A DNA stretch of 64,000 bases, from positions 124,001 to 188,000 of the forward strand of contig NZ_JAGHRE010000008.1 in NCBI RefSeq assembly GCF_017743935.1. The letters run 5' to 3'. This DNA is from Tropicibacter sp. R16_0. Lineage in GTDB: Bacteria; Pseudomonadota; Alphaproteobacteria; Rhodobacterales; Rhodobacteraceae. The position numbers and the translations under genes are program-made. Below are positions 24,441 to 57,141 of the stretch, in pieces; the stretch's first letter is position 1; each line of letters starts with the position of its first letter. A model generated the notes under the pieces. That model ran no database searches. It saw only the letters and a list, made by a program, of their open reading frames with translations, and had not been told where the DNA came from.

Positions 24441-24533
24441 GTCCGGGGCGCTCCCGCCCGTCGTCAATTTTTCTGACGAAAAACCTCCTCCCGTTGGACC
24501 AAGCCTCGCTTCGCTCGGCGGTTGGCGAATTTG
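24441..24533 (+). repeat. Two-hairpin intergenic repeat, copy A
   Basis: Copy of the dispersed element. Conserved blocks GCGCTCCCGCCCGTCGTC and CCTCCTCCCGTTGG flank stem 1, TTTTTC-TGAC-GAAAAA (24468-24483). Stem 2 is GCC-TC-GC-TTC-GC-TC-GGC. Stem 1 is A+T-rich here, unlike the G+C-rich stems of other copies, yet pairs perfectly around the same TGAC loop. Confidence 0.75.
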
Positions 24534-24551
24534 GCAAAACCGATGCGCCAG

Positions 24552-24644
24552 GCGGTACCGCGCCGCGCATAGCGCGGCGCCCGGCCCAAGTCCGCTAGCC
24601 GGGCTGACGCAGTCAGGATGGCTCGGGCGCGGGAGCCCCCCGCC
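24552..24644 (-). repeat. Two-hairpin intergenic repeat, copy A', inverted
   Basis: Read on the minus strand this has GGCTCCCGCGCCC, then a diverged first part, then TTGGGCCGGGCGCC...GGCGCGGTACCGC as in the copy at 57.1 kb. Stem 2 is GCGCCGCGC-TAT-GCGCGGCGC (24560-24580), perfect. It lies head to head with copy A between the convergent mnmC-like and dehydratase genes. Confidence 0.7.
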
Positions 24645-24670
24645 GTTGACTTGCTCGCAAGATCCGTGGC

Positions 24671-25492
24671 TCAAGCAACGGGGGCTGCACGGGCCTGCAT
24701 ACATTGGCGTCCGTCCGGTCCCCGAACCCAAAGGTCATTGCCGCTCAGACAAAACTCAGCCTGTTCGAAATGCATCAAAGGGGACGAGGCGCGGAACGAG
24801 AACGTTGCCAGTGGCCCCAAGACCTCGGTCGCAAGCAGCATCAGTTTCTGCGCTAAAAGTGGACCATGCACCACAAGCCCTGAGTAGCCTTCCACATCAC
24901 GAGCATAGTCCAAGTCATAGTGGATCCGATGCCCATTGAAGGTCAGTGCCGAGTAGCGAAACAGGAAAGTTGAATCAAAGCGAGCGGCTTGCATGTCAGT
25001 CTCATCTGTACGCGCTAGAGGTGCGACCGGTTTCGGCGCATTTTCCTGGGGATCTTCGCGATAGACCAGATCTTGCCATTCGCTCAGGCACAACACACCG
25101 TCCTGCCAGATGTCGTGTCGCAGGGTGACAAAGGCCAGCGGCCCTGTACGCCCGACCTTTGACGTGACGCTTTCCAGAACCGATCGCCGTTCTGCCGCCA
25201 CACCCGCCCGCAAAGGCGCCGAAAACGTCAGCCGCCCCCCGGCCCACATCCTTCGCGGCAACCCCATGTCTGGTATCAAACCGCCCCCCACCAGCGGATG
25301 ACCGTCGCGTCCCAAGCCATCAGGTGGACGTGGCGTCCAGAAATAGAGCTGATGAAAGAAAGGAGGCAGAGGTGATCCGGCCACAATTGTGGGGTCCTGC
25401 CCCAAAGCGACCTGAAATGCGGCCGCGCGGGTCGGGTCCATCACGTCGCCTTGGATCTCGGTCCGAGTTTCTGTCTGGTCTGTCGATGTCAT
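24671..25492 (-). CDS. MaoC-like/FAS1-like dehydratase (enoyl-CoA or mesaconyl-CoA hydratase type)
   Basis: 273 residues from the ATG at 25492. Two hot-dog domains are suggested: an N-terminal part with the conserved RMWAGGRLTFSAPLRAGV, and a C-terminal MaoC-type helix and loop FNGHRIHYDLDYARDVEGYSGLVVHGPLLAQ carrying the catalytic Asp/His pattern of hydratase 2. Relatives include mesaconyl-C4-CoA and 3-methylfumaryl-CoA hydratases of C4/C5 dicarboxyl-CoA metabolism, but no such neighbours occur here, so the substrate is open. Divergent from the VOC protein gene. Confidence 0.8.
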   Translation of the reverse strand: MTSTDQTETRTEIQGDVMDPTRAAAFQVALGQDPTIVAGSPLPPFFHQLYFWTPRPPDGLGRDGHPLVGGGLIPDMGLPRRMWAGGRLTFSAPLRAGVAAERRSVLESVTSKVGRTGPLAFVTLRHDIWQDGVLCLSEWQDLVYREDPQENAPKPVAPLARTDETDMQAARFDSTFLFRYSALTFNGHRIHYDLDYARDVEGYSGLVVHGPLLAQKLMLLATEVLGPLATFSFRASSPLMHFEQAEFCLSGNDLWVRGPDGRQCMQARAAPVA

Positions 25493-25530
25493 AGCAGGCA
25501 CTTTAGGCAGATCACCACAAAGGACAATCC

Positions 25531-25926
25531 ATGCCTGACGTTTCCACGCTTGATCACCTGGTTCTGACCGTCGCCGACATTCCTGCAACGGTCGCCTTCT
25601 ATTCGAATATTCTGGGAATGCAGGCCGAAGAGTTTCATCCGGCAGATGGGTCCACGCGCACCGCGCTCAAGTTCGGAACCCAAAAGATCAACCTTCATCC
25701 TGCCAAGCGACCCTTTGAACCAAAGGCGCAGCACCCTGCGCCCGGCTCTGCCGATCTGTGTTTTCTCACGGATCAAACGCTAGAGACCTGGACGCACCAC
25801 CTGTCGCAACTGGGCGTCCCGATCGAAGACGGGCCGGTCGCCCGTACAGGAGCAACCGGCCCGATCATGTCCATTTACATCCGCGATCCCGACGGCAATC
25901 TGATCGAGATCGGAACAGTCGCTTAG
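25531..25926 (+). CDS. VOC family protein (glyoxalase/bleomycin-resistance fold)
   Basis: 131 residues with the paired beta-alpha-beta-beta-beta pattern: LDHLVLTVADIPATVAFYSNILGM at the start and MSIYIRDPDGNLIEIGT at the end. Metal-ligand candidates are His9, His55 and Glu126. Such proteins include glyoxalases, dioxygenases and drug-binding proteins; no more precise call is possible. Its stop overlaps by four bases the stop of the convergent FMN reductase. Confidence 0.85.
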   Translation: MPDVSTLDHLVLTVADIPATVAFYSNILGMQAEEFHPADGSTRTALKFGTQKINLHPAKRPFEPKAQHPAPGSADLCFLTDQTLETWTHHLSQLGVPIEDGPVARTGATGPIMSIYIRDPDGNLIEIGTVA

Positions 25927-26465
25927 CGCGCGACCTCTGCCCGCAGCTTGTCCATCAATGCCTGAAGCGTCTTGGTGTACTGCGCGCTGGTCAGCTGACC
26001 GTTTTCGTCAAATTCGTTCGAGCTGTTTGCCAGATGAACTTCGGGACCTTGCAGAATGCGCGGCTGGAACGGGACCATGAAACCGCGCAAAACCATCTGC
26101 GCGCGCTCACCGCCGGCCCGCCCGGCGGCAGCTGACATAACTGCAACCGGCTTGTCCGCCCAGGGGTTCGACCCGGTGCGGCTGACCCAGTCCAATGCGT
26201 TCTTCAGCACACCAGACGGCCCCTTGTTGTATTCAGGGGTGGAAATCACGACTGCATCGGCGGCTGCGATCTGATCCGCCAACGTTTCAACTGCGGCCGG
26301 AACACCCTCGGCATCCTCAAGGTCTCCGTCATAAAGCGGCAGGTTCAGATCCGCCTCGACATAGGTTTCGGCATCAAACAGGCGCGCGGCCTCACGCAGC
26401 AGCCTGCGGTTGGTTGCATCTTTGCGCAGCGAGCCAGATAGGCCCAAAAGAACTGGTGCGGACAT
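25923..26465 (-). CDS. NADPH-dependent FMN reductase family protein
   Basis: 180-residue flavodoxin-like protein. The FMN phosphate loop is GLSGSLRKDATNRRLLREA (8-26), and STPEYNKGPSGVLKNALDWVSR (about 95-116) is the family signature around the isoalloxazine site. It reduces FMN, quinones or chromate-like acceptors with NAD(P)H in the cytoplasm. Relatives are often annotated ChrR or ArsH-like, but the ArsH N-terminal extension is absent. Monocistronic. Confidence 0.88.
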   Translation of the reverse strand: MSAPVLLGLSGSLRKDATNRRLLREAARLFDAETYVEADLNLPLYDGDLEDAEGVPAAVETLADQIAAADAVVISTPEYNKGPSGVLKNALDWVSRTGSNPWADKPVAVMSAAAGRAGGERAQMVLRGFMVPFQPRILQGPEVHLANSSNEFDENGQLTSAQYTKTLQALMDKLRAEVAR

Positions 26466-26655
26466 CTTGAATAACTCCGGTTTTGTAACTGTGCCCTATG
26501 TAGCAAGCCGTGGTTCAGGACCAACCCCAACCCGCGCGCAGGGGCTGTTCGAAAATTCGCAGGACCAAGGGAACGTAGCGTAATGACAACATTCAAACGC
26601 GCTGAGCGAGACGCGGATTATGCCCGCATCACTGCCTTGAATCTCAATCGGCACA

Positions 26656-26674
26656 ATTTATATGCTGTATAAAT
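26656..26674. promoter_or_regulatory. Palindromic operator of the DHFR-like/tetR operon
   Basis: ATTTATA-TGCTG-TATAAAT is a perfect 7+7 inverted repeat, 19 nt upstream of the first gene of a two-gene operon that ends with a TetR gene. It overlaps the likely -10 region (TATAAAT), suiting autorepression. Confidence 0.6.
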
Positions 26675-26692
26675 ATTGACCATGGAGTTCAC

Positions 26693-27232
26693 ATGACAAC
26701 TGGACACATCATGATGGCGATGACCTTGGACGGGTTTGTCGCACGCAAGGACCACGCACTTGATTGGTTGTTCAAACAACCCTCTGGCAACGAAGATCAT
26801 GGGTTTGTCGATTTCATGAACAGCGTTGATGTGCTGGTGATGGGAACCGGATCGCTTCGTACGGTTCTGGGGTTTGATACGTGGCCCTACGACAAACCCG
26901 TCGTTGTCCTGAGCCGGACCATGACAAAGGATGACCTGCCAAGCGATCTGCGCGACAAGGTCGAATTTTCAACCGCTGCACCAAAAGACCTTTGGGAGAG
27001 CTTTGCCGAACGAGGATTCGAACGGGTCTATGTGGATGGCGGAGCCATCATTCAGTCGTTTCTCAAGGCGGGTCTTATCAACGACATGAAAGTCTCCATG
27101 ATCCCAATTCTGATAGGTGATGGCATCAGGATTTTCGGCGACATAGACCATGATATTGATCTAGAACTGCAATCTGCGACCAGTTTCCCGTCCGGCTTGG
27201 TCGATTTGGTCTATAAGGTCAAAGCTGCATGA
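26693..27232 (+). CDS. Dihydrofolate reductase family protein (RibD C-terminal-like)
   Basis: 179 residues. It begins GHIMMAMTLDGFVARKD, the usual YyaP/RibD-C start, and includes VLVMGTGSLRTVL, VVVLSRTM and GFERVYVDGGAIIQSFLKAGLINDMKVSMIPILIGDGIRIF, which form the NADPH-binding fold. These DHFR-like reductases are distinct from FolA, and their substrates are mostly unknown. GGAG lies five bases before the ATG. It overlaps the TetR gene by four bases (ATGA) and sits behind the ATTTATA palindrome. Confidence 0.85.
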   Translation: MTTGHIMMAMTLDGFVARKDHALDWLFKQPSGNEDHGFVDFMNSVDVLVMGTGSLRTVLGFDTWPYDKPVVVLSRTMTKDDLPSDLRDKVEFSTAAPKDLWESFAERGFERVYVDGGAIIQSFLKAGLINDMKVSMIPILIGDGIRIFGDIDHDIDLELQSATSFPSGLVDLVYKVKAA

Positions 27233-27789
27233 ACGCGCGCCCGACGGTGGGACGTCCGAAAGCTTCGGACCAGAAAATCTCCAAGGCCCGAATTATCGAA
27301 GTCGCTCTGCCAATCGTGCAACGAGACGGCATTGAGGCGCTGAGCTTTCGCACCTTGGCCGATTTGTTGGGCGTCACACCGATGGCCGTCACCTATCATT
27401 CCGGGAGCAGGCAACAGCTTTTGACTGACTTGGTGGCAGCCGCATTCAAAGACACTCTGGTTCCGGTCAAGGGGGCAACGGCCTCGGATCGGGCACGGCA
27501 AATCCTGACCGCATACTGCACCCGGGCGCTTACGAACGCGCATCTGCTGCGCGCAGTTCTAAGTGATCCCTCTTTGATGAGTGCCGATCTGAAACATGTG
27601 ACCGACGCATTGGGAACATGCGCAAAGGACCTGAACGACGGCGATGCAGGCAGTGTTCTGTTGCACCTTCTCATCGACTACACGCATGGATTTGTTCTTT
27701 CGGCGGCAAGCGACGAGACCGACACGTTGACGATTGACGACTATCTGCGCGGGATAGATTGGGTCTTGGGTCGAGCGCAACGCACCTAG
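27229..27789 (+). CDS. TetR/AcrR family transcriptional regulator
   Basis: 186 residues with an N-terminal HTH: KARIIEVALPIVQRDGIEALSFRTLADLLGVTPMAVTYHSGSRQQLLTDLV (19-69). The C-terminal domain is helical and resembles the TetR_C proteins that regulate drug- or xenobiotic-responsive genes. It is translationally coupled to the DHFR-like reductase and probably controls both through the 26656 palindrome. Confidence 0.87.
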   Translation: MNARPTVGRPKASDQKISKARIIEVALPIVQRDGIEALSFRTLADLLGVTPMAVTYHSGSRQQLLTDLVAAAFKDTLVPVKGATASDRARQILTAYCTRALTNAHLLRAVLSDPSLMSADLKHVTDALGTCAKDLNDGDAGSVLLHLLIDYTHGFVLSAASDETDTLTIDDYLRGIDWVLGRAQRT

Positions 27790-27800
27790 TGCTCTCCCCC

Positions 27801-27830
27801 AAAAAACGATCCCGCCGCCAAGGCGACGGG
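27801..27830 (-). terminator. Terminator of the OmpA lipoprotein gene
   Basis: On the minus strand CCCGTCGCC-TT-GGCGGCGGG (one G-T pair) is followed by ATCGTTTTTT. It lies 68 nt after the OmpA stop and 22 nt after the convergent TetR stop, which may also use it weakly. Confidence 0.82.
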
Positions 27831-27897
27831 AAAGTGGCTTATCAGCAATACTGGCTTGTACCGGACCACGTCAGCGCGTGGTCCATCAAGACAAGTG

Positions 27898-28560
27898 TCA
27901 CGCGCTGGTGGGGATGACCACGATTTCGACCCGGCGGTTCTGGGCTTTGCCCACCTCGTTCAGGTTCGACGCAATTGGGTCGTCTTCGCCGCGGCCAATG
28001 GTCGAGATCCGGTTGTAAGGCACACCGCCAGCCTGGATGATATCAGCCACCGCATTGGCGCGACGCACAGACAGGCCTTGGTTATACTCTGCCGCACCGT
28101 CGCTGTCGGTATGGCCGATGATCTGGACGCTGCTTTCGGGATACTTCAACAGGTTCTGCGCGACCTTGTCCAAGTCGGATTGCAAGGCAGGGCGCACCGC
28201 AGAGCTGTCGGTGTCAAAGGTGATGTCATTCGGCACGGATACGATCAGGCGGTCGCCTGTGTTGGTGATGGTGATCCCATCGTTGGCCAGCTCCTGCCGC
28301 AGGTCAGCAGCTTGCTTGTCCAGAACGGAGCCGATTGCACCACCGGCCAAAGCACCAGCGGCGGCGCCAACAATCGCCGATTTGGCGGAGGAACCGGTAA
28401 TGGCACCAATGCCCGCACCCAAAATGCCACCGGCGATCGCCCCCTGTTTGGTGTTCTGCTTGGGATCGGTTTGAACGCCCAATTGCGCCGGATCGGTACA
28501 GGCGGCAAGGGTAACAGCCGCGCCCATCAGCACGGCCAACGAGGTTTTCGAGATCGACAT
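27898..28560 (-). CDS. OmpA family lipoprotein (YiaD-like)
   Basis: 220-residue outer-membrane lipoprotein. The signal peptide ends in the lipobox LAAC (Cys21). Residues 40-80 are a glycine zipper (GAIAGGILGAGIGAITG...GAAAGALAGGAIG) and residues 100-215 the OmpA peptidoglycan-binding domain with IIGHTDSDGAAEYNQGLSVRRANAV and the late NRRVEIVV. It anchors the outer membrane to peptidoglycan. A second, larger OmpA-domain protein is at 42039-42947. Monocistronic with its own terminator. Confidence 0.93.
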   Translation of the reverse strand: MSISKTSLAVLMGAAVTLAACTDPAQLGVQTDPKQNTKQGAIAGGILGAGIGAITGSSAKSAIVGAAAGALAGGAIGSVLDKQAADLRQELANDGITITNTGDRLIVSVPNDITFDTDSSAVRPALQSDLDKVAQNLLKYPESSVQIIGHTDSDGAAEYNQGLSVRRANAVADIIQAGGVPYNRISTIGRGEDDPIASNLNEVGKAQNRRVEIVVIPTSA

Positions 28561-28650
28561 AGGGTCACCTTCTGCTCAACGGCCCTTGTTCACAGGGCTT
28601 TTCCTTACCCCCACTATATCATGCTTTGTTGGCGCGCGCTCAACCGACAA

Positions 28651-29382
28651 TCAATTGACTTCGGCGGTTCCTTGCGCATTGGGCGTCGGATCAAAGGTTC
28701 TGTTACGGTCTTCCCACCGGTTCTGCTGATGCCAGACCTCGCGCAGCGCCGCACCTTGCCCAACGAACCGCTGCTCCAGCCAGTCGCAAGCCCAAATGCG
28801 ATCGGTACGAAAATGGCGGAACCCGCCACGCAGCTCGCACCAGGCAGCCAGCATGGTGCATTCAAGATGATAGATCAGCGCCACGGGACGTACGACACGT
28901 TCCGTTTCCTTGTTTGCCTCGTCCCGGTACGTCAACCGCAGCTTTTGCTCTTGCCGGATTGCTGAACGCAGGCCCGACTTGGACACACAGCCCCGCTCGG
29001 CATCGTCCAAAGGGGCACCCCAGGGCGCCACTTGCAGCCATTCTGCCGGGTCATGCAGATCCTCGATTTTCTGACATATCCGCTTGGCCGCCTGTTGTAA
29101 GGCGCTGTCCCCGGTGCGCTCGAGCATCGACAGACCAACCCGCAACGCTTCCAGCTCTTCCAGATCGAAGTTCAGCGGTGGCAGATCATATCCACGCCGC
29201 ATCAGATAACCCAAACCCGCCTCGCCCTCGATCGGGGTCCGCATCGCCTGAAGCGCTGCAATGTCGCGATAGATCGTGCGAACCGAGACCTCGAGCTGTT
29301 CGGCCAGAGTATCCGCCGTCACCGGCCGAGGCGCGGCGCGCAGGATCTGGATGATTTCGAAAAGGCGGTTGGATCGGTGCAT
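28651..29382 (-). CDS. WYL-domain (YafY/DeoR-type) transcriptional regulator
   Basis: 243 residues. The N-terminal HTH_11 domain is RLFEIIQILRAAPRPVTADTLAEQLEVSVRTIYRDIAAL (6-44); the WYL domain spans about 135-205 (LRLTYRDEANKETERVVRPVALIYHLECTMLAAWCELRGGFRHFRTDRI). WYL regulators sense nucleic acids or small ligands and usually control an adjacent gene. The divergent neighbour is a 65-codon frame, with a CTGACA/TGTCAG repeat between the two. Confidence 0.88.
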   Translation of the reverse strand: MHRSNRLFEIIQILRAAPRPVTADTLAEQLEVSVRTIYRDIAALQAMRTPIEGEAGLGYLMRRGYDLPPLNFDLEELEALRVGLSMLERTGDSALQQAAKRICQKIEDLHDPAEWLQVAPWGAPLDDAERGCVSKSGLRSAIRQEQKLRLTYRDEANKETERVVRPVALIYHLECTMLAAWCELRGGFRHFRTDRIWACDWLEQRFVGQGAALREVWHQQNRWEDRNRTFDPTPNAQGTAEVN

Positions 29383-29422
29383 CTGAGTCTCCGGGATGAT
29401 CCTGACAGCTTAGCACACCCCA

Positions 29423-29440
29423 CTGACAACAGGATGTCAG
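29423..29440. promoter_or_regulatory. Candidate WYL-regulator operator
   Basis: CTGACA-ACAGGA-TGTCAG is a perfect 6+6 inverted repeat between the divergent WYL regulator and the small frame at 29488. A further CTGACA half-site is at 29402. Centre and spacing suit a dimeric repressor. Confidence 0.5.
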
Positions 29441-29487
29441 GAGGCATCTGTTTTTCTAGGTCCCACACGTTTGATTGGAGAGTGCTG

Positions 29488-29685
29488 ATGTCTTCTTATG
29501 ACCACACAACGCTAATGACCCTAGGCCTGGACCGTTGGAGCCGCCCGCGTCCGCCAAAACCCTGGGAAATCGAGCGCGAAGAATTCACCGAACGCAAAGC
29601 GGCCCATCGACCCCGGAAACAGGCCCCCAATCCCCGGATCAGGCTTCGGCTCTGGCGGCCTCATAGGCCAGCATCGCCCGTTTGA
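29488..29685 (+). CDS. Small basic hypothetical protein
   Basis: 65 codons, preceded by GGAG seven bases before the ATG and by the CTGACA/TGTCAG repeat. The product is very basic and Pro/Arg-rich (GLDRWSRPRPPKPWEIEREEFTERKAAHRPRK...), with no membrane helix or known domain. The last 47 bases overlap the end of the Ada-like gene on the other strand, which makes the C-terminus suspect. It may be a genuine small gene controlled by the WYL regulator or a chance frame. Confidence 0.4.
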   Translation: MSSYDHTTLMTLGLDRWSRPRPPKPWEIEREEFTERKAAHRPRKQAPNPRIRLRLWRPHRPASPV

Positions 29686-30493
29686 CGGGCAGACCCCAGT
29701 GATAGCCGCCCAAACCACCAGATTTACGCAGGGCACGATGGCAGGGGATGATCCAGCTGATCGGGTTGCGACCCACAGCTGTACCCACGGCCCGAACTGC
29801 TTTTGGGTTGCCGATGGCCTCGGCGATCTCGGAATAGGTGGTGACCTGACCGGATGGGATGCGCAACAGCGCCTCCCATACCTTGATCTGCAAGGGCGCC
29901 CCGATCAGATAGAGCGGCGTCGGTTCCAGCCGGTCGCTGGCAGCGTTGAAGATGTTCAAGACCCAGGGACGCAGTCTCATCGGGTCTTCGACAAACTCGG
30001 CCTTGGGCCAACGCGACAACAGATCCTCCATTGCTGCTTCGGCCGTGGTTTCGGCCGCAAAGCCAACCCCGCAAATTCCCTTGTCGGTGCCCATGACCAA
30101 CGCCGGACCAAAGGGGCTTTCGAACCAACCCCAATAGATCACAAGGCCCTCGCCCTGTCGGGCATAGTCGCCAGGGCTCATCGCCTCCCACCGGACGAAC
30201 AGATCATGCAGGCGACCGGTGCCGGACAGACCCACGCTGTGCGCGGCCTCAAGCGTGGTAAAATGTTCCTGCAACAGCGCCTTGGCGTGGCCGAGGGTCA
30301 GGTATTGCTGGTACTTCTTGGGTGACACACCGACCCACCGTGAAAACAGGCGCTGAAAATGCGCGGGGCTCATGTTCATCTGACCCGCCAGCTGTTCAAG
30401 CGACAGGTTCCCCTCGTCCTGATCAATCAGTTCGATGGCCCGACGCATGACGCCGTAATGATAGCCTTCTTCTCCGGTGCGCATGTTCATCAC
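29639..30493 (-). CDS. Ada-like AraC/O6-alkylguanine-DNA methyltransferase fusion
   Basis: 284 residues combining an AraC-type HTH (about 18-100, LSLEQLAGQMNMSPAHFQRLFSRWVGVSPKKYQQYL) with a C-terminal MGMT domain whose acceptor is Cys251 in IPCHRAL; RIPSGQVTTYSEIAEAIG precedes it. It repairs O6-alkylguanine by suicide alkyl transfer. Compared with E. coli Ada it lacks the N-terminal zinc domain with the phosphotriester-acceptor Cys, so methylation-triggered activation of ada-type promoters by that route should be absent. The start is 30493 or the adjacent ATG. Confidence 0.9.
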   Translation of the reverse strand: MMNMRTGEEGYHYGVMRRAIELIDQDEGNLSLEQLAGQMNMSPAHFQRLFSRWVGVSPKKYQQYLTLGHAKALLQEHFTTLEAAHSVGLSGTGRLHDLFVRWEAMSPGDYARQGEGLVIYWGWFESPFGPALVMGTDKGICGVGFAAETTAEAAMEDLLSRWPKAEFVEDPMRLRPWVLNIFNAASDRLEPTPLYLIGAPLQIKVWEALLRIPSGQVTTYSEIAEAIGNPKAVRAVGTAVGRNPISWIIPCHRALRKSGGLGGYHWGLPVKRAMLAYEAARAEA

Positions 30494-30569
30494 GATACCC
30501 TTTCACTTACTGACCTCACAGTAGCGAACTCGCCCCGTGCAATGCGACCCGGAACTTGCGCAAGTATTT

Positions 30570-30584: not shown

Positions 30585-30615
30585 GAATCAGATTTAAGTA
30601 ATCTAGGATCCCGAC

Positions 30616-31065
30616 ATGACCCAGACCCTCGATCACCTGTACCAGGCCGTTCAGGCCACCCGCCCGTTGCTGCGCAACATCACGGCGGCTGTCGAGCAAG
30701 GCAGCCGCCGACACGGAGTAACCGTTGGGCAACGCGCCATCCTGGAAGGCCTGTTTTTGCACCCTGATGCCACTGCCCCTGTGTTGGGTTCGGAATTGCA
30801 GATGAAGCGTCAATATGTGGCGCGTGTTCTGCAAGAAGTGATCGCGGCGGAATTGGTCAAAAAGCTGCCCAACCCGGATCGCGCCCGATCATGGCGATAT
30901 CGGCTAACAGCCAAGGGAAAGGATGTCATTTCAGCCATCCGGGCTGATGAAACATCCAAATTGATCGCGTTTGCCGAGGGGCAGACCACCGAAGACCTGG
31001 ACGCATACTGCAGGCTGCAAATCGCCTTAACGCAGTATTTTGCTTTGCTCGCCAAGGAGAGCTGA
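30616..31065 (+). CDS. MarR family transcriptional regulator
   Basis: 149-residue winged-helix protein. The HTH and wing region is TVGQRAILEGLFLHPDATAPVLGSELQMKRQYVARVLQEVIAAELVKKLPNPDRARSWRYRLTAKG (about 37-103). It is followed after one base by an isochorismatase-like hydrolase, its probable target, and preceded by the 30570 palindrome. The ligand is unknown. Confidence 0.88.
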   Translation: MTQTLDHLYQAVQATRPLLRNITAAVEQGSRRHGVTVGQRAILEGLFLHPDATAPVLGSELQMKRQYVARVLQEVIAAELVKKLPNPDRARSWRYRLTAKGKDVISAIRADETSKLIAFAEGQTTEDLDAYCRLQIALTQYFALLAKES

Positions 31066-33497: not shown

Positions 33498-33590
33498 GGG
33501 GGCACTCCCGCCCATCGTCGATGCCCCTCACGGGGCATCTCCTCTGGTTGGGCCGGGCGCTGCGCGGGGCTGACGCCCCCCGCAGCGCGG
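33498..33590 (+). repeat. Two-hairpin intergenic repeat, copy B
   Basis: Begins three bases after the adenosine kinase stop. Stem 1 is GATGCCCC-TCAC-GGGGCATC (33520-33539); the conserved GGTTGGGCCGGGCGC follows, then stem 2, GCGCTGCG...CGCAGCGC, with an inner GGGG/CCCC. The position suggests it serves as the 3' end of the nth-adenosine kinase message. Confidence 0.8.
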
Positions 33591-34008
33591 TTGTTCCCAG
33601 TTGGTGATGTCAGCGAAACGAACTTGTGCCATTTCTTGAAACGCGCCGCTCCGGGGTCCAGCGCGTTCTGTGTGCTGGTTCAAGATTGCGCGCAACACTA
33701 GGTTTGAGCGACAACGTCACCACCTTGAGTCCCTGGGTTGAGGCTCCGCAAAAGACGCCCATATCCAGAACCATGGTCAGCGCCTCGAAACCGCAGATGT
33801 CCCAGATCTGCCCTTGGTCATAGTCGAGACGCAGGATTTGAACCTATAGCCGTGGATCGGATGAGCTGCGACAAGTGTTCTGGCAGAATTTCCTCGCACG
33901 CGGAGGGTTGCCAGGCACCCTCGATTCAGCAGTTTGAATTTGGCGAACGCATACTCAAACACGTTGCCTTCTATCTTTTCTTCGCTGACCTACGCGCATG
34001 TTGCAGCA
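33591..34008. other. Gene-poor spacer with a tRNA T-arm-like remnant
   Basis: About 420 nt between repeat copy B and rppH in which no convincing gene is seen. On the minus strand 33831-33849 reads like a tRNA T-loop region (ATAGG-TTCAAAT-CCTGC), but only three pairs of its stem form cleanly and no acceptor or anticodon arm could be built. A minus-strand open frame of 61 codons (33777-33962) has no recognised similarity. Base use looks less codon-biased than in the neighbours, so this may be decayed foreign DNA. Confidence 0.35.
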
Positions 34009-34567: not shown

Positions 34568-34657
34568 ACTGCGGTGCCGCGCCGAGCCGCAGGCGAGGCG
34601 CCCGGCCCAACGCCGTGAGGGCCCGTCAGGGCACGAAACGGGGGCGGGAGCGCTTCC
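34568..34657 (-). repeat. Two-hairpin intergenic repeat, copy C
   Basis: Read on the minus strand: GCGCTCCCGCCC, stem 1 GCCC-TGAC-GGGC, GTTGGGCCGGGCGCC, stem 2 GCGCC-TC-GCC-TGC-GGC-TC-GGCGC and GCGGCACCGCAG. It lies between the divergent rppH and fadH genes, the only copy found between two divergent starts, so it may be transcribed in a leader. Confidence 0.78.
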
Positions 34658-34679
34658 GGTTTACGTGGCGGGCGGTTGA

Positions 34680-36776
<2,097 letters not shown>

Positions 36777-40080: not shown

Positions 40081-40179
40081 GCCCTCCCGACCATCGTCTA
40101 GGTTCCTGAGCGGAACCTCTCCTCCCGTTGGGCCCGGCAGCGCGCGGGCCTTGCCCGCGCGCTGCCGGGCCCCCGCCGT
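40081..40179 (+). repeat. Two-hairpin intergenic repeat, copy D
   Basis: CCTCCCGACCATCGTC, stem 1 AGGTTCC-TGAGC-GGAACCT (40100-40118), CTCCTCCCGTTGGGCC, then a perfect 14-bp stem 2, GGCAGCGCGCGGGC-CTT-GCCCGCGCGCTGCC. It lies 26 nt after the ArsR-type regulator and is the strongest stem in the set. Confidence 0.8.
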
Positions 40180-40367
40180 CCGCAGGACGCAAGACCGAAG
40201 GTCTCGCAGGAGACTATGAAAGAAGGCCGGAAACGATTGTTTCTTCGTTTCCATGACGCAAACGATCCGCGACAAAACCCTGATATTATCTCACCTCTGC
40301 CCCGTTCTCGCCCAGATTGACCAGCATAACCGATCCTCGAAACGCTGAATAAGCTGAGGAACCGAGC
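40180..40367. other. Spacer upstream of the LysR gene, with hairpins
   Basis: No gene seen. After repeat D come two more hairpins: AGACC-GAA-GGTCT near 40192 and GGAAACGA-TTGTTTCT-TCGTTTCC (40229-40252). With repeat D they fill most of the 313-nt gap between the ArsR-type and LysR genes; the last 100 nt should hold the LysR promoter. Confidence 0.5.
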
Positions 40368-50565: not shown

Positions 50566-51773
50566 GCTTTGAGGAGCGGTTTCAGGTCCGCATCGGGATC
50601 GCCCACAACCGCAGGATCAGCCGTCTTGCCCGCATCAATCAGACGCTTGCCGATCATGTAGGCGCGCGGATCGTTCATCGCGTCCACGGCCAGCAGCTGA
50701 TCGCCCTTGTAGTACCAGAACGAATTGGTCAGCCCCTCACCCTTACGGGTCACAACGCGGTCATAGCCGGTGTTCAGACCTGCGATCTGCAGTTTGACGT
50801 CATACTGATCCGACCAGAACCATGGGGTGGCGATGTAGTCCTTGTCCGCGCCCATCATGTTTTGCGCCACAACCTCGGCCTGGTCGATGGCGTTGGGAAC
50901 GCTTTCCAGACGGATGCGCTCACCCTTGTAAGGGAAAGAAGCACAGTCACCAGCCGCCCAGATCGACGGATCAGAGGTCCGGCCGTGCACATCGGTCTTG
51001 ATGCCATTGTCCAGCTCGACCCCAGCCATTTCCGCCAATTGCGTCGCGGGTGCAATGCCTACGCCCACCACAGCAAAGTCGATCTCCAATTCGGTGCCAT
51101 CAGTCAGAACGGCTCCGGTCACCTTACCATCGGTGCCTACGAGGTGATCCAGGCCCACGCCTTCGCGGATGTCAGCACCCTGACTGCTGTGCAGGTTGCG
51201 GAAATAGTCACTGGTCTCGGGTGCTGCGACACGTTGCAGGATACGGTCAGCCATTTCGACCAGCGTGACCTGCACACCGCGCTTGGCACAGACGGCCGCA
51301 GCCTCCAGCCCGATGTAGCCACCGCCGATGATCAGGGCACGCGCACCATCCCTGAACTCGGGCGCCATGGCGTCGGCATCAGCCAGATCGCGAACAAGGA
51401 ACACGTTTTCCAGATCGCCGCCGATCTTGGCAGGCAAACGCCGCGGGTCCGAGCCGGTGGTCAGCGCGAGTTGGTCGTAGCTGATCACCTCGTCACCCAC
51501 AGTCACGGTCTTGGCCGCCGCATCTATTGCCGTCACACGGCTTCCCAGCTTCACGGTGATATTCTGCTCTTCGTAGAAGGACGCAGGCCGCAGGAACAGG
51601 CGTTCCAACTCCATATCGCCCAGCAGGTATGCCTTGGACAGCGGCGGGCGCTGATATGGCAGAACAGGCTCGGCCCCGATCAGGGTGATCTCGCCTTCGA
51701 ACCCATCCTTGCGCAGCTTAGCTACAAGGGACGATCCCGCCTGTCCGGCCCCGATCACGACGATATGGCTCAT
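50562..51773 (-). CDS. FAD-dependent ferredoxin reductase-like oxidoreductase
   Basis: 403 residues, two Rossmann folds: FAD motif VVIGAGQAGSSLVAKLRKDGFEGEITLIG (4-32), NAD motif ALIIGGGYIGLEAAAVCAKRGVQVTLVE (about 145-172) and C-terminal FAD-binding DVHGRTSDPSIWAAGDCASFP. It fits the rhodocoxin/putidaredoxin reductase group, passing electrons from NADH to a [2Fe-2S] ferredoxin, but neither ferredoxin nor P450 is adjacent. First gene of the pair with rsmD; divergent from peroxiredoxin. Confidence 0.9.
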   Translation of the reverse strand: MSHIVVIGAGQAGSSLVAKLRKDGFEGEITLIGAEPVLPYQRPPLSKAYLLGDMELERLFLRPASFYEEQNITVKLGSRVTAIDAAAKTVTVGDEVISYDQLALTTGSDPRRLPAKIGGDLENVFLVRDLADADAMAPEFRDGARALIIGGGYIGLEAAAVCAKRGVQVTLVEMADRILQRVAAPETSDYFRNLHSSQGADIREGVGLDHLVGTDGKVTGAVLTDGTELEIDFAVVGVGIAPATQLAEMAGVELDNGIKTDVHGRTSDPSIWAAGDCASFPYKGERIRLESVPNAIDQAEVVAQNMMGADKDYIATPWFWSDQYDVKLQIAGLNTGYDRVVTRKGEGLTNSFWYYKGDQLLAVDAMNDPRAYMIGKRLIDAGKTADPAVVGDPDADLKPLLKA

Positions 51774-51823
51774 TTTCTTCCTGCCTCACTAAAAAATGAT
51801 GGTCACCTGTCGGCCAACAGCTA

Positions 51824-51839
51824 TATGCCGAAGGGCATA
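51824..51839. promoter_or_regulatory. Small palindrome in the oxidoreductase/peroxiredoxin spacer
   Basis: TATGCC-GAAG-GGCATA is a perfect 6+6 inverted repeat, 33 nt before the peroxiredoxin start and 50 nt from the oxidoreductase start. It could be an operator shared by both genes or a leader hairpin. Confidence 0.35.
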
Positions 51840-51871
51840 GAACCGCAAATCCAACAACGAGGTATCAAAGT

Positions 51872-52357
51872 ATGATTGCAGTTGGCGAACAAATTCCCGA
51901 CGCCACAGTGACGTTTATGGGCGCAGAAGGGCCTGAACAAATCAATATCGCCGACAAGGCCAAGGGGCGCAAAGTTGTGATTTTCGCGGTGCCGGGCGCC
52001 TTCACTCCGACCTGCCATTCCGCGCATGTCCCAAGCTTCATCCGCACCAAGGATCAGTTCGCTGAAAAGGGCGTGGATGAGATCATTTGCGTGTCCGTGA
52101 ACGACCCGTTTGTGATGTCCGCCTGGGGCGAGGCAACGGGTGCATCCGCGGCCGGATTGACCATGATTGCCGACGCAGAGTGCACATTCACCGACGCCAT
52201 CGGTGCCCGTTTTGATGCCCCGCCCGCTGGTCTGATCGCACGTTCGATCCGCTACGCGATGTTGGTCGAAGACGGCAAGGTTGTGGCCGTCAACGTCGAA
52301 GAAAACCCTGGCATGTGCGAGCTGTCGGCGGGCGAAGGTTTGCTGGACGTCATCTGA
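51872..52357 (+). CDS. Peroxiredoxin, Prx5/GrxPrx type
   Basis: 161 residues. The peroxidatic Cys48 lies in the Prx5 motif VPGAFTPTCHSAHVPSF; FEEKGVDEI-like FAEKGVDEIICVSVNDPFVMSAWG and ADAECTFTDAIG follow. It reduces hydroperoxides, probably with glutaredoxin or thioredoxin; a further Cys in ENPGMCEL could be resolving. A strong terminator begins seven bases after the stop. Confidence 0.94.
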   Translation: MIAVGEQIPDATVTFMGAEGPEQINIADKAKGRKVVIFAVPGAFTPTCHSAHVPSFIRTKDQFAEKGVDEIICVSVNDPFVMSAWGEATGASAAGLTMIADAECTFTDAIGARFDAPPAGLIARSIRYAMLVEDGKVVAVNVEENPGMCELSAGEGLLDVI

Positions 52358-52363
52358 GTTTGA

Positions 52364-52397
52364 ACGCCCCGAAGCCGCTGGTTTTGGGGCGTTTTTC
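52364..52397 (+). terminator. Peroxiredoxin terminator
   Basis: ACGCCCC (52364-52370) pairs with GGGGCGT (52386-52392) and is followed by TTTT. The 15-base loop contains inner pairing potential. Confidence 0.82.
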
Positions 52398-52495
52398 TGC
52401 AAGCCAAATTGCTGTCATTTTAGACAAGCAAAAATCCGCCGATGGACCACGCCGTGGCACCCCGCAATCCCGGATTTCATCCCATGTGATTCGGC

Positions 52496-52789
52496 TCAGA
52501 GCAGCGAATCCATCTTGCGCGCCAGCTTGGCATCAAGGGACGACACCCCGTCCACATCATGCGTGGTCAGGACCACCTCGACCGTGCGGTAAACGTTGCT
52601 CCATTCCGGGTGATGGTTCCATTTCTCGGCCCAGATCGCGACGCGGGTCATCCAGCCAAAGGCCTCGACGAAATTGTCGAAGATGAACGTCTTGGTTATC
52701 GCATCGCGCCCCTCGACCATGGTCCAGCCATTGTCGAACAACGGATCCAGCAGCGGTCCACGTGTGGCGTCAGACAGTTTTTCGGTCAT
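52496..52789 (-). CDS. 4a-hydroxytetrahydrobiopterin dehydratase (PCD/DCoH)
   Basis: 97 residues, the full PCD fold. The active-site block [30 protein letters not shown] carries the two catalytic His. It recycles pterin 4a-carbinolamine formed by aromatic amino acid hydroxylases; in bacteria without such a hydroxylase nearby it may instead aid molybdopterin or folate metabolism. Last gene of a run, overlapping the DUF482 gene by four bases. Confidence 0.93.
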
Positions 52790-53973
52790 TGCTGTTCCTC
52801 CACATCCACCTTCTTGAAGGGGCCGTAATCCGTCAACAGCTCAATCTCCTGGTCGATTGCCTCGCGCTCAGCCTCGAGGTATCGCGCGATGGCGTCGGCA
52901 AAACCTGGATCGCCCACCCAATGCAGGCTGTGGGTTTGTGTCGGCATATAGCCACGCGCCAGCTTGTGTTCGCCTTGTGCGCCTGCCTCGACCCGGCGCA
53001 GACCTTCGGCAATCGCAAGGTCGATGGCGCGATAATAGCACAGTTCGAAGTGCAGGCAGGGATGATGTTCGATGCAGCCCCAATAGCGACCAAAAAGCGT
53101 CTCACGCCCGATGAAATTGAGCGCCCCGGCCACATAAACTCCGTTCCGCTCTGCCAGCACCAGCGCCATGTCATCCGCCATCACCTCATGTGCAATCTCA
53201 AAGAACTGCCGTGTCAGGTAGGGCGACCCCCATTTGCGCGCGCCGGTGTCCTGGTAGAACATCCAGAAGGCGTCCCAGTGTTCCGGACGCAACTCATCCC
53301 CCGAGAACGTCTGGATCGTGCCACCAAAGTCGTTGGCTTGTCGCCGTTCCTTACGCAGTGTCTTGCGCTTGCGCGAGGACAGCGCAGCCAGGAAGTCATC
53401 GAAATCCGAATAGCCATCGTTGAGCCAGTGAAACTGCTGCGTGGTGCGGTGCATCAGGCCGATTTCCTGGCCCACTTGGGCCTCGGCCTCGGTGCAAAAG
53501 GTGACATGCACGGTTGAGACGTTGTTGTCGGCGGCCAGCTGCACCATCCCCTGCAGCAGTGCCGATTGACCAACCCCTTCATATCCCGGACGCACCAGAA
53601 ACCGCCGCCCCGTGGCCGGGGTGAACGGCACGGCGACCTGCAGTTTGGGGTAGTAGCGCCCACCGGCGCGCTCATACGCATGGGCCCAATTGTGGTCGAA
53701 GATGTACTCGCCCTGGCTGTGCGACTTGGCATAAAGCGGCGCGGCAGCGATCATCATGCCATCCAGATACGCCGTCAGATACTGCGGCTGCCATCCGGTG
53801 CCTGCCCCAACCGAACCGCTCTCTTCCAGTGCACTCAGAAACCGGTGCGTGGTGAACGGATCCATCGGGCGCCCACCATCTACTGCCTCGGGACAGGCGC
53901 AGGCGTCCCAATCCTGCGCGGATATCTGCGACAGCGATCCCAAAACCTGAATTTCGATCTGCGCCTGATCCAT
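52786..53973 (-). CDS. DUF482/GNAT-like N-acyltransferase
   Basis: 395-residue protein of the COG3146 family (peptidogalycan biosynthesis/recognition, FemAB-like double GNAT). Recognisable blocks: [57 protein letters not shown] and [25 protein letters not shown], and the late [13 protein letters not shown]. The acyl substrate is unknown. Downstream of glpQ-like by 46 nt and coupled to the pterin dehydratase. Confidence 0.88.
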
Positions 53974-54019
53974 GACCCCTCCTGCTTTGCCTCTTTATCT
54001 GTGGTCGGGGGCGCGCGGA

Positions 54020-54790
54020 TCAACCCGGCGCTTGGGCAAGATAGCCTTCGAATGTCACGTTCTGCGCGACCAGCCGCGCTTCGCGATCCTGCTGCGCGGA
54101 CTTGCTGGTCCAGCACAAGATATCCGCGCCCGCGGCTTTGAGCTCGGCCACACGCGGGCGAGTGAGATCCTCGACCTCGTGACTGATGAAACAGGAGCGC
54201 GTTCGGTCGTAGTCGGGAATGTCCCGCAGATGATCACAAACCGCCTGCGACAGGGGCCATTCAGCGGGGTCATAGGCGCTGGTCACGATACCACGCGGAA
54301 CATCGGGCAGAAGATCAGCCAGCAACTCAACGCTGTTTGGGTTGAACGACATCAACGCAACAGGCCCCTGATACCCAGCAAGTGCTGAGGCCGTGGCCTG
54401 CTCCAATGGTCCGATGGCCGTGCCCATTGCTCCGTCCTGGTCCTTGAGCTCGATCAGCAAGGGAGCGCGTCCGCCCACCATTTCGAGCACTTCGGACAGG
54501 CTGGGGATGTACTCATCCTTGCCCCCCAAAAGGGTCGTCGCACGCGCCTGGTCGGACGATACGAGACGAATGGCACCTGGCGTACCAGTGAGCCGCCCCA
54601 TGTCATAGTCATGGAACACCATCGCCTGACTGTCGGATGTCATCTGCAGATCGATCTCGATGCCATACCCCGCATCCATCGCCGCGCGGATGGCCGCGCG
54701 GCTGTTTTCGGGGCGACCGTCGGTCACATCATGCAGGCCACGGTGTGCAATGGGTGCATCCAGAAAGGCCCGGGGCAATCGCGGGATCAT
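54020..54790 (-). CDS. Glycerophosphodiester phosphodiesterase family protein
   Basis: 256-residue TIM-barrel enzyme. The GDPD motif is clear: IAHRGLHDVTDGRPENSRAAIRAAMDAGYGIEIDLQMTSDSQAMVFHDYDMGRLTG supplies the catalytic His, Glu, Asp and second His; LIELKD continues the metal site. No signal peptide, so it is cytosolic, hydrolysing glycerophosphodiesters from lipid turnover to glycerol-3-phosphate. Overlaps ridA by four bases. Confidence 0.92.
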   Translation of the reverse strand: MIPRLPRAFLDAPIAHRGLHDVTDGRPENSRAAIRAAMDAGYGIEIDLQMTSDSQAMVFHDYDMGRLTGTPGAIRLVSSDQARATTLLGGKDEYIPSLSEVLEMVGGRAPLLIELKDQDGAMGTAIGPLEQATASALAGYQGPVALMSFNPNSVELLADLLPDVPRGIVTSAYDPAEWPLSQAVCDHLRDIPDYDRTRSCFISHEVEDLTRPRVAELKAAGADILCWTSKSAQQDREARLVAQNVTFEGYLAQAPG

Positions 54791-55245
54791 TTGATCTGAA
54801 AGAAGCCTTCGATCTCGACTGCAACGCCCAACGGCAGCGCCGCAGCACTGACAGCCGAGCGCGAATGACGACCAGCGTCACCCAAAGCCTCGACCATAAA
54901 GTCGGATGCACCGTTGATGACTTGAGGCTGTGCCGTGAAGTCAGCGGTCGAATTCACAAATCCGGTCAGTTTCACGACGCGCACCAGACGATCCAGATCA
55001 CCGCCACAGGCCGCTTTGACCTGTGCAAGCAGGTTGATGGCGCAACGGCGCGCCGCAGCGGCGCCAGCCTCGACATCCATGTTCTCGCCCAGTTTCCCAA
55101 GAATCAGGCCGTTCTCGTCGTTCGAGATCTGCCCCGACACATAGACCATGTCGCCCACCTGCACGAAGGGCACGTAGTTGGCCGCCGGAGCAGGCGCGTC
55201 CGGCAGGGTCACACCCAGGCTTTCAAGTTTTGCTTCGATGCTCAT
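54787..55245 (-). CDS. RidA family protein
   Basis: 152 residues of the YjgF/RidA long form typical of alphaproteobacteria. SIEAKLESLGVTLPDAPAPAANYVPFVQVGDMVYVSGQIS at the start and VNSTADFTAQPQVINGASDFMVEALGDAGRHSRSAVSAAALPLGVAVEIEG at the end; the Arg in GRHSRSAV is the conserved carboxylate-binding position. Deaminates reactive enamine/imine intermediates. The start at 55245 is preferred over a 17-codon extension. First gene of the ridA-glpQ-DUF482-PCD run. Confidence 0.92.
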   Translation of the reverse strand: MSIEAKLESLGVTLPDAPAPAANYVPFVQVGDMVYVSGQISNDENGLILGKLGENMDVEAGAAAARRCAINLLAQVKAACGGDLDRLVRVVKLTGFVNSTADFTAQPQVINGASDFMVEALGDAGRHSRSAVSAAALPLGVAVEIEGFFQIK

Positions 55246-55562
55246 GGCACGCGTCCTTTCGAAATTCGCAATCGGGGGGACGCTAGCCGGGATCATGAGC
55301 CACGAAAAGCCCGAAACTCAGATTTAGCATGCCAGATCCCCGATCAGTGATCCCGCAGTTGAAGTCCGGCAAATGCTCGCCAACGCGCCGAACACAAGCA
55401 AGACCGCTTTACGCGGTGCACTTAGCAAGCTAAATGCAACCCTGTTCCATAAGTGACACACATCGAATCCGTTGTTCCGCTGCTGGTGTCAGGGACATTG
55501 GTTGCGATTATATCCAAGGCTTGGCAATCTGGCCGGAACTTGTTGAATGGATTACGAATAGA
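55246..55562. other. Divergent spacer between ridA and mlaA
   Basis: 317 nt without a supported gene. It holds the ridA and mlaA promoters, a hairpin ACCGC-TTTAC-GCGGT (55403-55417) and a small palindrome TTAGC-AA-GCTAA (55422-55433) close together. An open frame into mlaA from 55434 has no lipoprotein character and is rejected as a start. Confidence 0.5.
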
Positions 55563-56366
55563 ATGACCAATTTCGCCGGAACCGCTCTGCGCTTGTGCAT
55601 CATGGCTCTGGCCCTGATCGCTGCTGGTTGCGCCCAGACAACAACCGTCGAAAAAGCCAACGGTGCCTTTCATGATCCTTATGAAAACGGCAACCGTTCG
55701 ATTCATTCCTTCAACCGTGGCGTCGACAAATTCCTGTTTCGGCCGGCATCCAAAGGCTATGTCAGCATCATTCCGGATCCGATGGTGACCAGCTTCAACT
55801 CGTTTGCTGAAAACATTTCCCTGCCCGGTCAGGCCGTTGACTATCTGCTGCAAGGCAAGCCCAAGGAAACCGCCATTACGCTCTATCGGTTTCTGATCAA
55901 TTCCACCGTGGGCTTTGCGGGCCTTGCAGACCCGGCCACCGAATTCCAGGTGCCGCAGGTCGATACCGATTTCGGCGAAACCCTGCATGTCTGGGGTGTA
56001 GGAGAAGGGCCTTATTTGGAGCTGCCCCTTTACGGCCCATCGACCACTCGGGATGCCGTGGGAGTTGTTGTCAACCTGTTCACCAATCCCTTGGACTTTG
56101 CCCCGACCCGTCCGATCGACAATCTTGGGCTGTACACCGAAATCGTGCGTCGCATGGGCGATCGGGGTCGGTTCTCGGACACGGTCGATTCGATTTTGTA
56201 TGAAAGCGCCGACAGTTACGCCCAGGCTCGCCTGATTTATCTGCAAAACCGCCGCTTCGAACTGGCAGGCGATGATGAGGACGCCTATCTTGGCCTATAC
56301 GCTGATCCCTACTCGGATCCATATTCAGATGCGTCAGACCCCTACGAGGACCCCTATGCTGAGTGA
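55563..56366 (+). CDS. mlaA: MlaA (VacJ) family phospholipid-retrograde transport lipoprotein
   Basis: 267 residues. Signal peptide with lipobox IAAGC (Cys23). The MlaA domain shows DPYENGNRSIHSFNRGVDKFLFRPASKGY, NSFAENISLPGQAVDYLLQGK, FLINSTVGFAGLADPATEF and DFGETLHVWGVGEGPYLELPLYGPSTTRD. It removes phospholipids from the outer leaflet of the outer membrane and hands them to MlaC. The C-terminus is a run of DPY repeats (ADPYSDPYSDASDPYEDPYAE), not part of the domain. Overlaps mlaC by 11 nt. The inner-membrane mlaFEDB genes are not in the window. Confidence 0.93.
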   Translation: MTNFAGTALRLCIMALALIAAGCAQTTTVEKANGAFHDPYENGNRSIHSFNRGVDKFLFRPASKGYVSIIPDPMVTSFNSFAENISLPGQAVDYLLQGKPKETAITLYRFLINSTVGFAGLADPATEFQVPQVDTDFGETLHVWGVGEGPYLELPLYGPSTTRDAVGVVVNLFTNPLDFAPTRPIDNLGLYTEIVRRMGDRGRFSDTVDSILYESADSYAQARLIYLQNRRFELAGDDEDAYLGLYADPYSDPYSDASDPYEDPYAE

Positions 56367-56964
56367 TTTTTTGAGCCGCCGTAACTTTGTTGCCACCGCC
56401 GTGGCCGGATTTTCGATGACGGCGCTGCCACTGCCAGCCTTTGCCTTGACCGAGGCAGGTGCCCGGAACTTGGTGAACAGTGTTGTCGCCGACATCAACA
56501 AGGTGATCGCATCAGGCAAGTCCGAGTCGGCGATGTTGCGGGATTTCGAGAAGATCTTTGTGCGCTATGCCGATGTGCCGATCATGGCACGCTATGCCTT
56601 GGGTGCCGATGCTCGGTCAGCGTCGCAAGCGCAACTGCGGAACTTCACCAAGGCGTTCCAGGGCTATATCTCGCGCAAGTACGGCCGTCGGTTCCGTGAG
56701 TTCATCGGTGGCGAAGTGACCGTCAGATCGGCCCGCAAAATCAAGGCAGGCTATGAGATCAAGAGCCTGGTCAAACTGCAGGGTTCGGCCCCGTTTGATG
56801 TGACATTCCTGGTCTCGGACAAATCCGGCAAGGACAAGTTCTACAACATGTTCATCGAAGGCGTGAACTTGCTGTTGACCGAACGCACCGAGATCGGTGC
56901 CATGCTGGATCGGCGCAAAGGCGATCTGAACAAGCTGATTTCGGACCTGTCCAAGGCGGGCTGA
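56356..56964 (+). CDS. mlaC: MlaC/Ttg2D family phospholipid-binding protein
   Basis: 202 residues, periplasmic carrier of phospholipid between MlaA and the inner-membrane ABC transporter. The N-terminus has a twin-arginine type signal (SRRNFVATAVAGFSMTALPLPAFA), suggesting export in folded form. The domain shows IFVRYADVPIMARYALG, FTKAFQGYISRKYGRRFREFIGGE and DKFYNMFIEGVNLLLTERTEIGAML. The ATG at 56356 lies inside mlaA's last codons, so translation is coupled. A strong terminator follows 26 nt after the stop. Confidence 0.92.
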   Translation: MLSDFLSRRNFVATAVAGFSMTALPLPAFALTEAGARNLVNSVVADINKVIASGKSESAMLRDFEKIFVRYADVPIMARYALGADARSASQAQLRNFTKAFQGYISRKYGRRFREFIGGEVTVRSARKIKAGYEIKSLVKLQGSAPFDVTFLVSDKSGKDKFYNMFIEGVNLLLTERTEIGAMLDRRKGDLNKLISDLSKAG

Positions 56965-56990
56965 TTTGTTCCAGTAAGAGACTACAAAAG

Positions 56991-57017
56991 GCCGCCCAGA
57001 GTTCGGGCGGCTTTTTT
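56991..57017 (+). terminator. Terminator of mlaA-mlaC
   Basis: GCCGCCC-AGAGTTC-GGGCGGC followed by TTTTTT. Confidence 0.92.
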
Positions 57018-57054
57018 GTATTGAGTGGTCTCCCGTCGCATTGCCAAAGACAGG

Positions 57055-57141
57055 GGTGCTCCCGCCCGTCGTCGATGCCCTGACGGGCACCTCCTCCCGT
57101 TGGGCCGGGCGCCTCGCCTTTGGCTCGGCGCGGTACCGCAG
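57055..57141 (+). repeat. Two-hairpin intergenic repeat, copy E
   Basis: GTGCTCCCGCCCGTCGTCGA, stem 1 TGCCC-TGAC-GGGCA (57076-57089), CTCCTCCCGTTGGGCCGG, stem 2 GCGCC-TC-GCC-TTT-GGC-TC-GGCGC, then GCGGTACCGCAG. Between the mlaC terminator and the convergent PBP gene. This copy best represents the family. Confidence 0.82.

Follow-up and report, generated by a model that had tools for sequence, protein, structure and literature searches.

A REP/BIME-like family of dispersed palindromic repeats in Rhodobacterales, apparently undescribed and a probable two-way 3'-end element

Between 24441 and 57141, a window of 64,000 nucleotides (nt) from Tropicibacter sp. R16_0 (contig NZ_JAGHRE010000008.1, positions 124,001–188,000; coordinates below count from its first letter) carries six places that an earlier note took for copies of one intergenic two-hairpin repeat. 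Are they passengers, or working parts of the transcripts that run into them? They seem to belong to a dispersed palindromic repeat family of Rhodobacterales, apparently undescribed, built of one unit or of two inverted units and similar to repetitive extragenic palindromic (REP) sequences and bacterial interspersed mosaic elements (BIMEs). Judged from sequence, the family probably serves converging transcripts as a 3'-end element that works in both directions.

All six places are real. A covariance model of the head and stem 1 (R1) matches four of them (expect value, E, 7.5e-12 to 8.5e-10), and a model of a second unit type (R2) matches the two formerly called inverted copies. These two are present as named, but represent the second unit type, not the first type inverted; 24441 and 24552, counted as separate copies, are best read as halves of one two-unit element. 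Window scores of R1 and R2 are not independent tests, because the heads at 24451 and 40084 and the unit at 24583 are among the training rows. The stems are as the note described, with a TC/TC mismatch in three tails. Tail hairpins and the B module were read from the letters; the strand of a head or second unit is that on which stems of its type fold best.

24451–24504, minus strand: unit 1 head of a two-unit (A-type) element, matched by R1; boxes CTCCCGCCCGTCG and CCTCCCGTTGGAC on the plus strand, stem 1 pairing 24468–24473 with 24478–24483.
24503–24519, no strand given: unit 1 tail hairpin with TC/TC mismatch.
24560–24580, plus strand: unit 2 tail hairpin, assigned by tail type, of the same A-type element as the 24451 head.
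24583–24635, plus strand: unit 2, a long rod stem-loop GCCCAA ... GCGGGAG (R2, 75.4 bits); formerly the inverted copy at 24552.
33505–33558, minus strand: unit 1 head whose unusual box letters, CCCATCG and CTCTGGTTGG, are shared by four species (R1, E 5.8e-10).
33557–33589, no strand given: tail hairpin of the 33505 copy.
34579–34601, plus strand: tail hairpin of the 34604 unit, with TC/TC mismatch.
34604–34650, plus strand: diverged single unit in a divergent gap (R2, 29.5 bits, E 8.4e-5); formerly the inverted copy at 34568.
40084–40138, minus strand: unit 1 head of a B-type element (R1, E 8.5e-10).
40133–40169, no strand given: long hairpin of the B tail of the 40084 copy.
40175–40209, no strand given: B module, possibly a three-way junction, with two small hairpins closed by CTGC/GCAG-like ends; recurs in B copies.
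57059–57110, minus strand: unit 1 head of a single-unit (C-type) copy (R1, E 7.5e-12).
57109–57131, no strand given: tail hairpin of the 57059 copy, with TC/TC mismatch.

In the window alone the repeat is weakly above chance: for two 15-mers, at up to three mismatches each, 6/100 and 5/100 shuffles reached the observed count. The case for a family therefore rests on genome-wide counts. The window's genome (G000, 5.24 Mb) holds 141 places with the 15-base core CTCCTCCCGTTGGGC when as many as two mismatches are allowed; the reversed pattern has 19. A two-block pattern, CTCCCGCCCN{18,30}CCTCCCGTTGGGC, has at least 109 exact copies in G000 and 73, 84 and 87 in three same-genus genomes; of 147 genomes it occurs in 12, every one a member of the window's family (90 searched); the 57 genomes of other families have none, and the reversed control gave 0 in every genome searched. 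The same-genus relatives are G001, G002 and G003, the last being Falsiruegeria mediterranea M17 or a near match to it (identity 100% across 1200 bases), placed by NCBI in Roseobacteraceae, Rhodobacterales. At E 0.001, R1 matches 43/295 genomes of the window's family and, in a class draw of 289 genomes, only G000, itself in the draw; R2 matches 10/295 family genomes, all among the 43. These scans scored 19 or 20 candidates per genome, and counts of 18–20 are lower bounds. A sequence search gave at least 95 stretches; among the matches listed are Ruegeria, Tropicimonas, Leisingera, Phaeobacter, Pseudophaeobacter, Gemmobacter and other genera, presumably all Rhodobacterales, one title reading only Alphaproteobacteria. 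Copies are spread through genome and family; restriction to this window, which the note named as a refuting outcome, is not what is seen. A plasmid or virus home was rejected: the one B-type copy tested has no match in the plasmid collection, and the two-block pattern has none in viral contigs. A weak R1 match at 30657–30735 (18.7 bits, E 0.11), within a called gene, is probably chance.

Three arrangements recur. Sorted by tail under a simple rule, 98 heads (from the window and from G000 loci representing 90 of the 141 core places) comprise 37 A, 27 B, 24 C and 10 other. A second unit in opposite orientation follows most A copies and some others. In its own sense it runs tail hairpin, GGCGCCCGGCCCAA, rod stem-loop and GGGCGCGGGAG, then mostly YRCCCCC. 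Unit 1 repeats this frame on the opposite strand but differs in its inner arm; the two-unit element is therefore palindromic, with its tails at the centre. In B copies a long hairpin and a small module take the place of the second unit. The module (GCCGTCCGCAGGACGCAAGRCCGNNAGGYCGCGCAG-like) recurs as a part of its own, its small stem varying between GGCC/GGCC and GACC/GGTC; that it could form a three-way junction is a reading of the letters, not a computed consensus.

Boxes are nearly invariant around stems that change and covary. The stem 1 alignment holds 82 heads: the window's genus supplies 51 and eight further genera 31. Every other one of the 82 distinct heads of the window's genome was taken, and 41 of 43 heads from elsewhere; two short ones of 36–37 letters, from genome G018, were dropped. 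Cells changed on both sides number 154, against 54.3 ± 6.5 in shuffles (0/500 as high), and slid controls give 19–65; counts of pairs showing at least one double change, and of distinct pair types, are not above shuffles (219/500 and 208/500). For the second unit, 70 of 73 units of the commonest length (81 found) and the window unit, whose letters equal those of another row (L135) but for a one-base shift, make 71 rows. Along the rod 97.7% of cells are paired; double changes number 103 versus 29.1 ± 4.1 shuffled, and further pair types 28 versus 21.0 ± 1.4 (0/500 for both). An outer pairing, GCCCG.CG/CG.TGGGC, is predicted in heads, in columns that hardly vary. Stems are partly swapped as whole classes between copies, so that copies are not independent and the shuffle tests overstate certainty. 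The covariation is strong in both unit types and supports selection on structure, as the note had argued from six copies.

Wobble pairs mark the folded strand. On the head strand, 117 distinct stem 1 sequences contain 763 Watson-Crick, 55 C.A, 4 G.T and 19 other cells; a C.A read on one strand corresponds to U.G on its complement. On the outward strand of unit 2 (73 sequences) there are 1185 Watson-Crick, 98 G.T, 5 C.A and 26 other cells. G.U is the commonest form of the pair at columns 19–37 (41/71 second units); this pair, itself predicted on the outward strand, supplies 41 of the 98 G.T, and without it G.T stands at 57 versus 5 C.A. By RNA folding energy, the left half is more stable on the minus strand in 183/210 copies and on the plus strand in 19/210, the right half on the plus strand in 86/88 and on the minus strand in 2/88. 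The majority direction of the left half is the same in all nine lineage groups, and that of the right half in all six groups having one. Bias and energies together indicate that units 1 and 2 fold best when read from the element's centre outward. The B module is an exception, 14/16 being slightly more stable on the minus strand, a bias opposite to that of unit 2.

The most straightforward interpretation of this bias is RNA; single-stranded DNA is also possible. G.T is the better mismatch in single-stranded DNA as well, so the bias does not separate the two. It also fits the first rival, selfish or once-mobile hairpin DNA of the REP or miniature inverted-repeat transposable element kind, in which the strand-specific hairpins would be the single-stranded substrate of some enzyme and location at gene 3' ends would be that of least insertion harm. 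A pair whose commonest form is G.U is more usual in RNA and speaks against this rival.

Placement is mostly convergent. Genes were called with a codon-score script of our own, not a standard gene finder. In G000, 68 of the 98 heads lie in convergent gaps, 16 and 12 in co-directional gaps of the two senses, 0 in divergent gaps, 1 within an open reading frame (ORF) call and 1 at a locus edge. With other genera included, 241 copies (those near locus ends and the diverged 34604 unit, a further divergent case, being left aside) divide into 150 convergent, 84 tandem (44 + 40 by sense), 4 divergent and 3 within an ORF call. As background, the window has 8 convergent and 15 divergent among 38 gaps of at least 60 nt. 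For the 35 convergent two-unit copies of G000 the median distance to the stop codon is 27 nt on the left and 26 nt on the right, and both stops are within 60 nt in 23/35. Two-unit copies fill convergent gaps symmetrically; the transcript of either gene would consequently carry a well-folded distal unit just before the opposite gene.

Single copies depart from this placement. The diverged 34604 unit sits in a promoter-side gap (34570–34748), contrary to the family rule, and has an alignable copy in all three same-genus relatives. One copy (locus L085, 1466–1705) lies within a 1161-base ORF call, possibly a gene 3' end running into the element or a gene-calling error.

The proposed action follows the path of a transcript. 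Whichever gene it comes from, it would first pass through the antisense half, C-rich and less stable; in copies with a second unit it would next carry the stable stem-loop of that unit, just before the neighbour's coding region. The distal stem-loop would aid transcription stop or block 3' exonucleases. As carried by the left gene's transcript, the head strand has C 0.42, G 0.25 and 3.0 YC steps per 10 nt; 16 control 3' flanks have C 0.30, G 0.29 and 1.45 YC steps per 10 nt. C-rich RNA suits Rho loading, and 3' trimming halts at a stem-loop; the head strand would suit such loading, with trimming back to the distal stem-loop.

Elements stay in place between species while their stems change. Syntenic and identity comparisons used blocks chosen for richness in copies. 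Of 14 syntenic G000 gaps with an element, the element is present in 13/13 comparable gaps of G003, 9/11 of G001 and 4/4 of G002. Places and orientation persist between species of the genus. Stem 1 belongs to a different class in 0/12 readable pairs with G003, 4/7 with G001 and 2/3 with G002, the boxes being unchanged (classes judged by reading). Stem-class make-up differs between G000 and G001 (19/18/38/18 versus 0/11/7/0, p 6e-4; "other" stems, 6 in each genome, excluded). Stem swaps within fixed boxes look like gene conversion between copies, which would keep the copies alike. The odd box letters of the 33505 copy are kept in four species next to DNA that hardly aligns, which indicates selection at the site, not copying from elsewhere. 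The stretch beyond that element (33590–34008) is apparently a spot of gene gain or loss: the gap is 513 bases in the window, and its counterparts, which apparently hold other genes, measure roughly 0.9 kb (G003), 3.3 kb (G002) and 2.8 kb (G001).

The whole reading, in which a REP/BIME-like family works as two-way 3'-end elements, is homogenized by gene conversion and has no REP-associated tyrosine transposase (RAYT) as its present driver, is held at slightly under even confidence. Several results weigh against it. Heads are 93.1%, 77.4% and 77.1% identical to G000 in G003, G001 and G002, respectively; the corresponding values are 74.4%, 58.3% and 61.8% at fourfold sites, 82.5%, 66.9% and 75.5% in the remainder of the same gaps, and 89.7%, 79.9% and 82.4% in element-free gaps, promoters included. 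Heads thus exceed fourfold sites, a point in favour of the reading, and also their own flanks. Compared with the element-free gaps taken together they are no more conserved (higher in G003, lower in G001 and G002), which counts against it. Single units in tandem gaps are antisense in 22 cases and sense in 16, not what a simple role at mRNA 3' ends predicts; a sense preference there was rejected (antisense versus sense, two-unit copies 11 versus 19 and B copies 11 versus 5). At single-unit copies the left gene receives the antisense unit only. Ordinary intrinsic terminators do not become clearly rarer beside elements: they occur at 29/138 convergent ends with an element versus 7/20 without (p 0.17), and at tandem ends are, if anything, commoner (7/28 versus 9/77, p 0.12). 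Presence is patchy in the family (43/295 genomes), so the function is not one that all members need.

Next to the 57059 copy, a GC hairpin followed by a T run, resembling an ordinary intrinsic terminator, lies at 56990–57018, between the upstream gene and the element. Some copies, then, do not replace a terminator.

The lack of orientation preference in tandem gaps and the patchy distribution, with high copy number in some genomes, agree with selfish DNA, as does the near absence of copies from divergent gaps. Against it, recent movement is not seen, the comparable sites being shared as given above. The only clear absence, in G001 at the 40054 gap, is without target duplication. A second gap that looks empty, in G001 at 7221 of block B1, is not a clean empty site, as it seems to contain a diverged, oppositely oriented look-alike. 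The note proposed looking for a RAYT in the same genome; none was found in G000 or in the other three copy-rich genomes of the genus (0 matches to PF01797 in G000–G003), and a RAYT as present driver was rejected for the window's genus. Eight other carriers searched gave 1 PF01797 match in G010 and 5 in G018, partial. Selfish DNA remains a serious candidate, well short of even; it is less likely than the two-way 3'-end reading, but nearly as likely.

The two-way 3'-end reading has a stricter form, an RNA insulator under selection. Each mRNA, in either direction, would end in a strand-specific stem-loop short of the neighbour's coding region, and stems would be replaced by gene conversion in fixed boxes with no dedicated transposase. 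This form is possible, but is put forward tentatively.

Recognition of the elements as double-stranded DNA by a nucleoid or topology protein, at points where supercoils accumulate from converging transcription, is unlikely. Gyrase or IHF binds the BIMEs of E. coli, and invariant boxes, convergent location and symmetry suit such binding; alone, it does not explain stems that covary and whose wobble pairs favour one strand. That the elements give rise to small RNAs bearing an anti-Shine-Dalgarno motif, of the CcsR/cuckoo kind, is very improbable: CCTCCTCCC or CTCCTCCC stands beside stem 1 on the head strand in many copies of the window's genus, but several heads of other genera carry CCCCTCCC or CGCCTCCC instead, stem 1 folds better on the strand opposite to the motif, and the motif is outside stem 1.

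It has long been asked whether REP and BIME repeats do useful work or are simply carried along, and this family offers a clean test: many copies per genome, places shared between species, stems exchanged in place, and a wobble bias marking the folded strand. If true, the two-way 3'-end reading would explain why such repeats gather between converging genes. A repeat recurring across the Roseobacter group, which includes common marine model bacteria, would also gain a name and a model.

In the window no Rfam 15 family passes its gathering threshold. With relaxed cut-offs, three stretches gave, in turn, SorX at 12.4 bits (gathering score 46.6), no match, and two snoRNA models at 9.3 bits. Among the matches listed in open-licence literature, supplements aside, no REP-like family of Rhodobacterales is described, which does not prove that none is in print. 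With covariation, copies throughout genome and family and no Rfam match, the note's proposal of a REP-like or structured 3' element gains support.

CGTC-tagged REPs are among the known systems most like this one. According to the portions of Di Nocera et al. 2013 (PMC3733652) consulted, they occur mainly in Alphaproteobacteria as high-copy intergenic palindromes and inverted pairs, mostly in convergent or co-directional gaps near ORF 3' ends, with no dedicated transposase; each has an unpaired CGTC at one palindrome end, an 8–9 bp stem with complementary AT at the first two positions, a loop of 4–5 nt and a short unpaired tail, mostly CCA. Ruegeria, Rhodobacter, Silicibacter and Roseo- are absent from the text of that paper (its species table is a figure, outside this check). 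The present family shares the habit, so far as those portions describe it, and has CGTC 5' of stem 1 in nearly all heads (alignment columns 9–12: 80, 81, 82 and 81 of 82). The distance from CGTC to stem 1 varies, and CGTC is predicted to lie in the outer pairing. Stems are mostly of 6–9 bp and loops mostly of 3–5 nt. The family differs in first pairs that are not AT in most stems; in lacking a CCA tail, stem 1 being followed by (C/T)CTCC-, CGCC- or CCCC-like letters; and in longer conserved boxes (CTCCCGCCCGTCG and CCTCCCGTTGGGC), two arms per unit and a second unit without the CGTC tag.

Many copies share a CCUCCUCCC-like motif with CcsR/cuckoo RNAs. In those RNAs it is located in hairpin loops (PMC3927594, part of the text); here it is outside the hairpin loop and not conserved across genera, and identity was rejected on its place. 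Like bidirectional intrinsic terminators, the elements are hairpins between convergent genes; unlike them, units end GGGAG-YRCCCCC, and some gaps hold a separate ordinary terminator. This identity was rejected because no U run follows the hairpin.

Composite inverted repeats, high copy number and location near gene 3' ends are shared with GTAG-tagged REPs and REPINs (composite REP elements) with RAYT and with E. coli BIMEs, as far as the parts of PMC2267715 consulted go. The head consensus differs from GTAG REPs and REPINs in having no GTAG, and the four same-genus genomes in having no PF01797 protein. As in BIMEs, inverted palindromic units and linker modules form an extragenic mosaic, here in the A, B and C arrangements. 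That REPs undergo gene conversion and that BIMEs attenuate transcription are already known ideas. New here are the second unit type, the symmetric filling of gaps, the opposite strand bias of the two halves, the lack of a RAYT match in the four same-genus genomes, and persistence in place with stem swapping.

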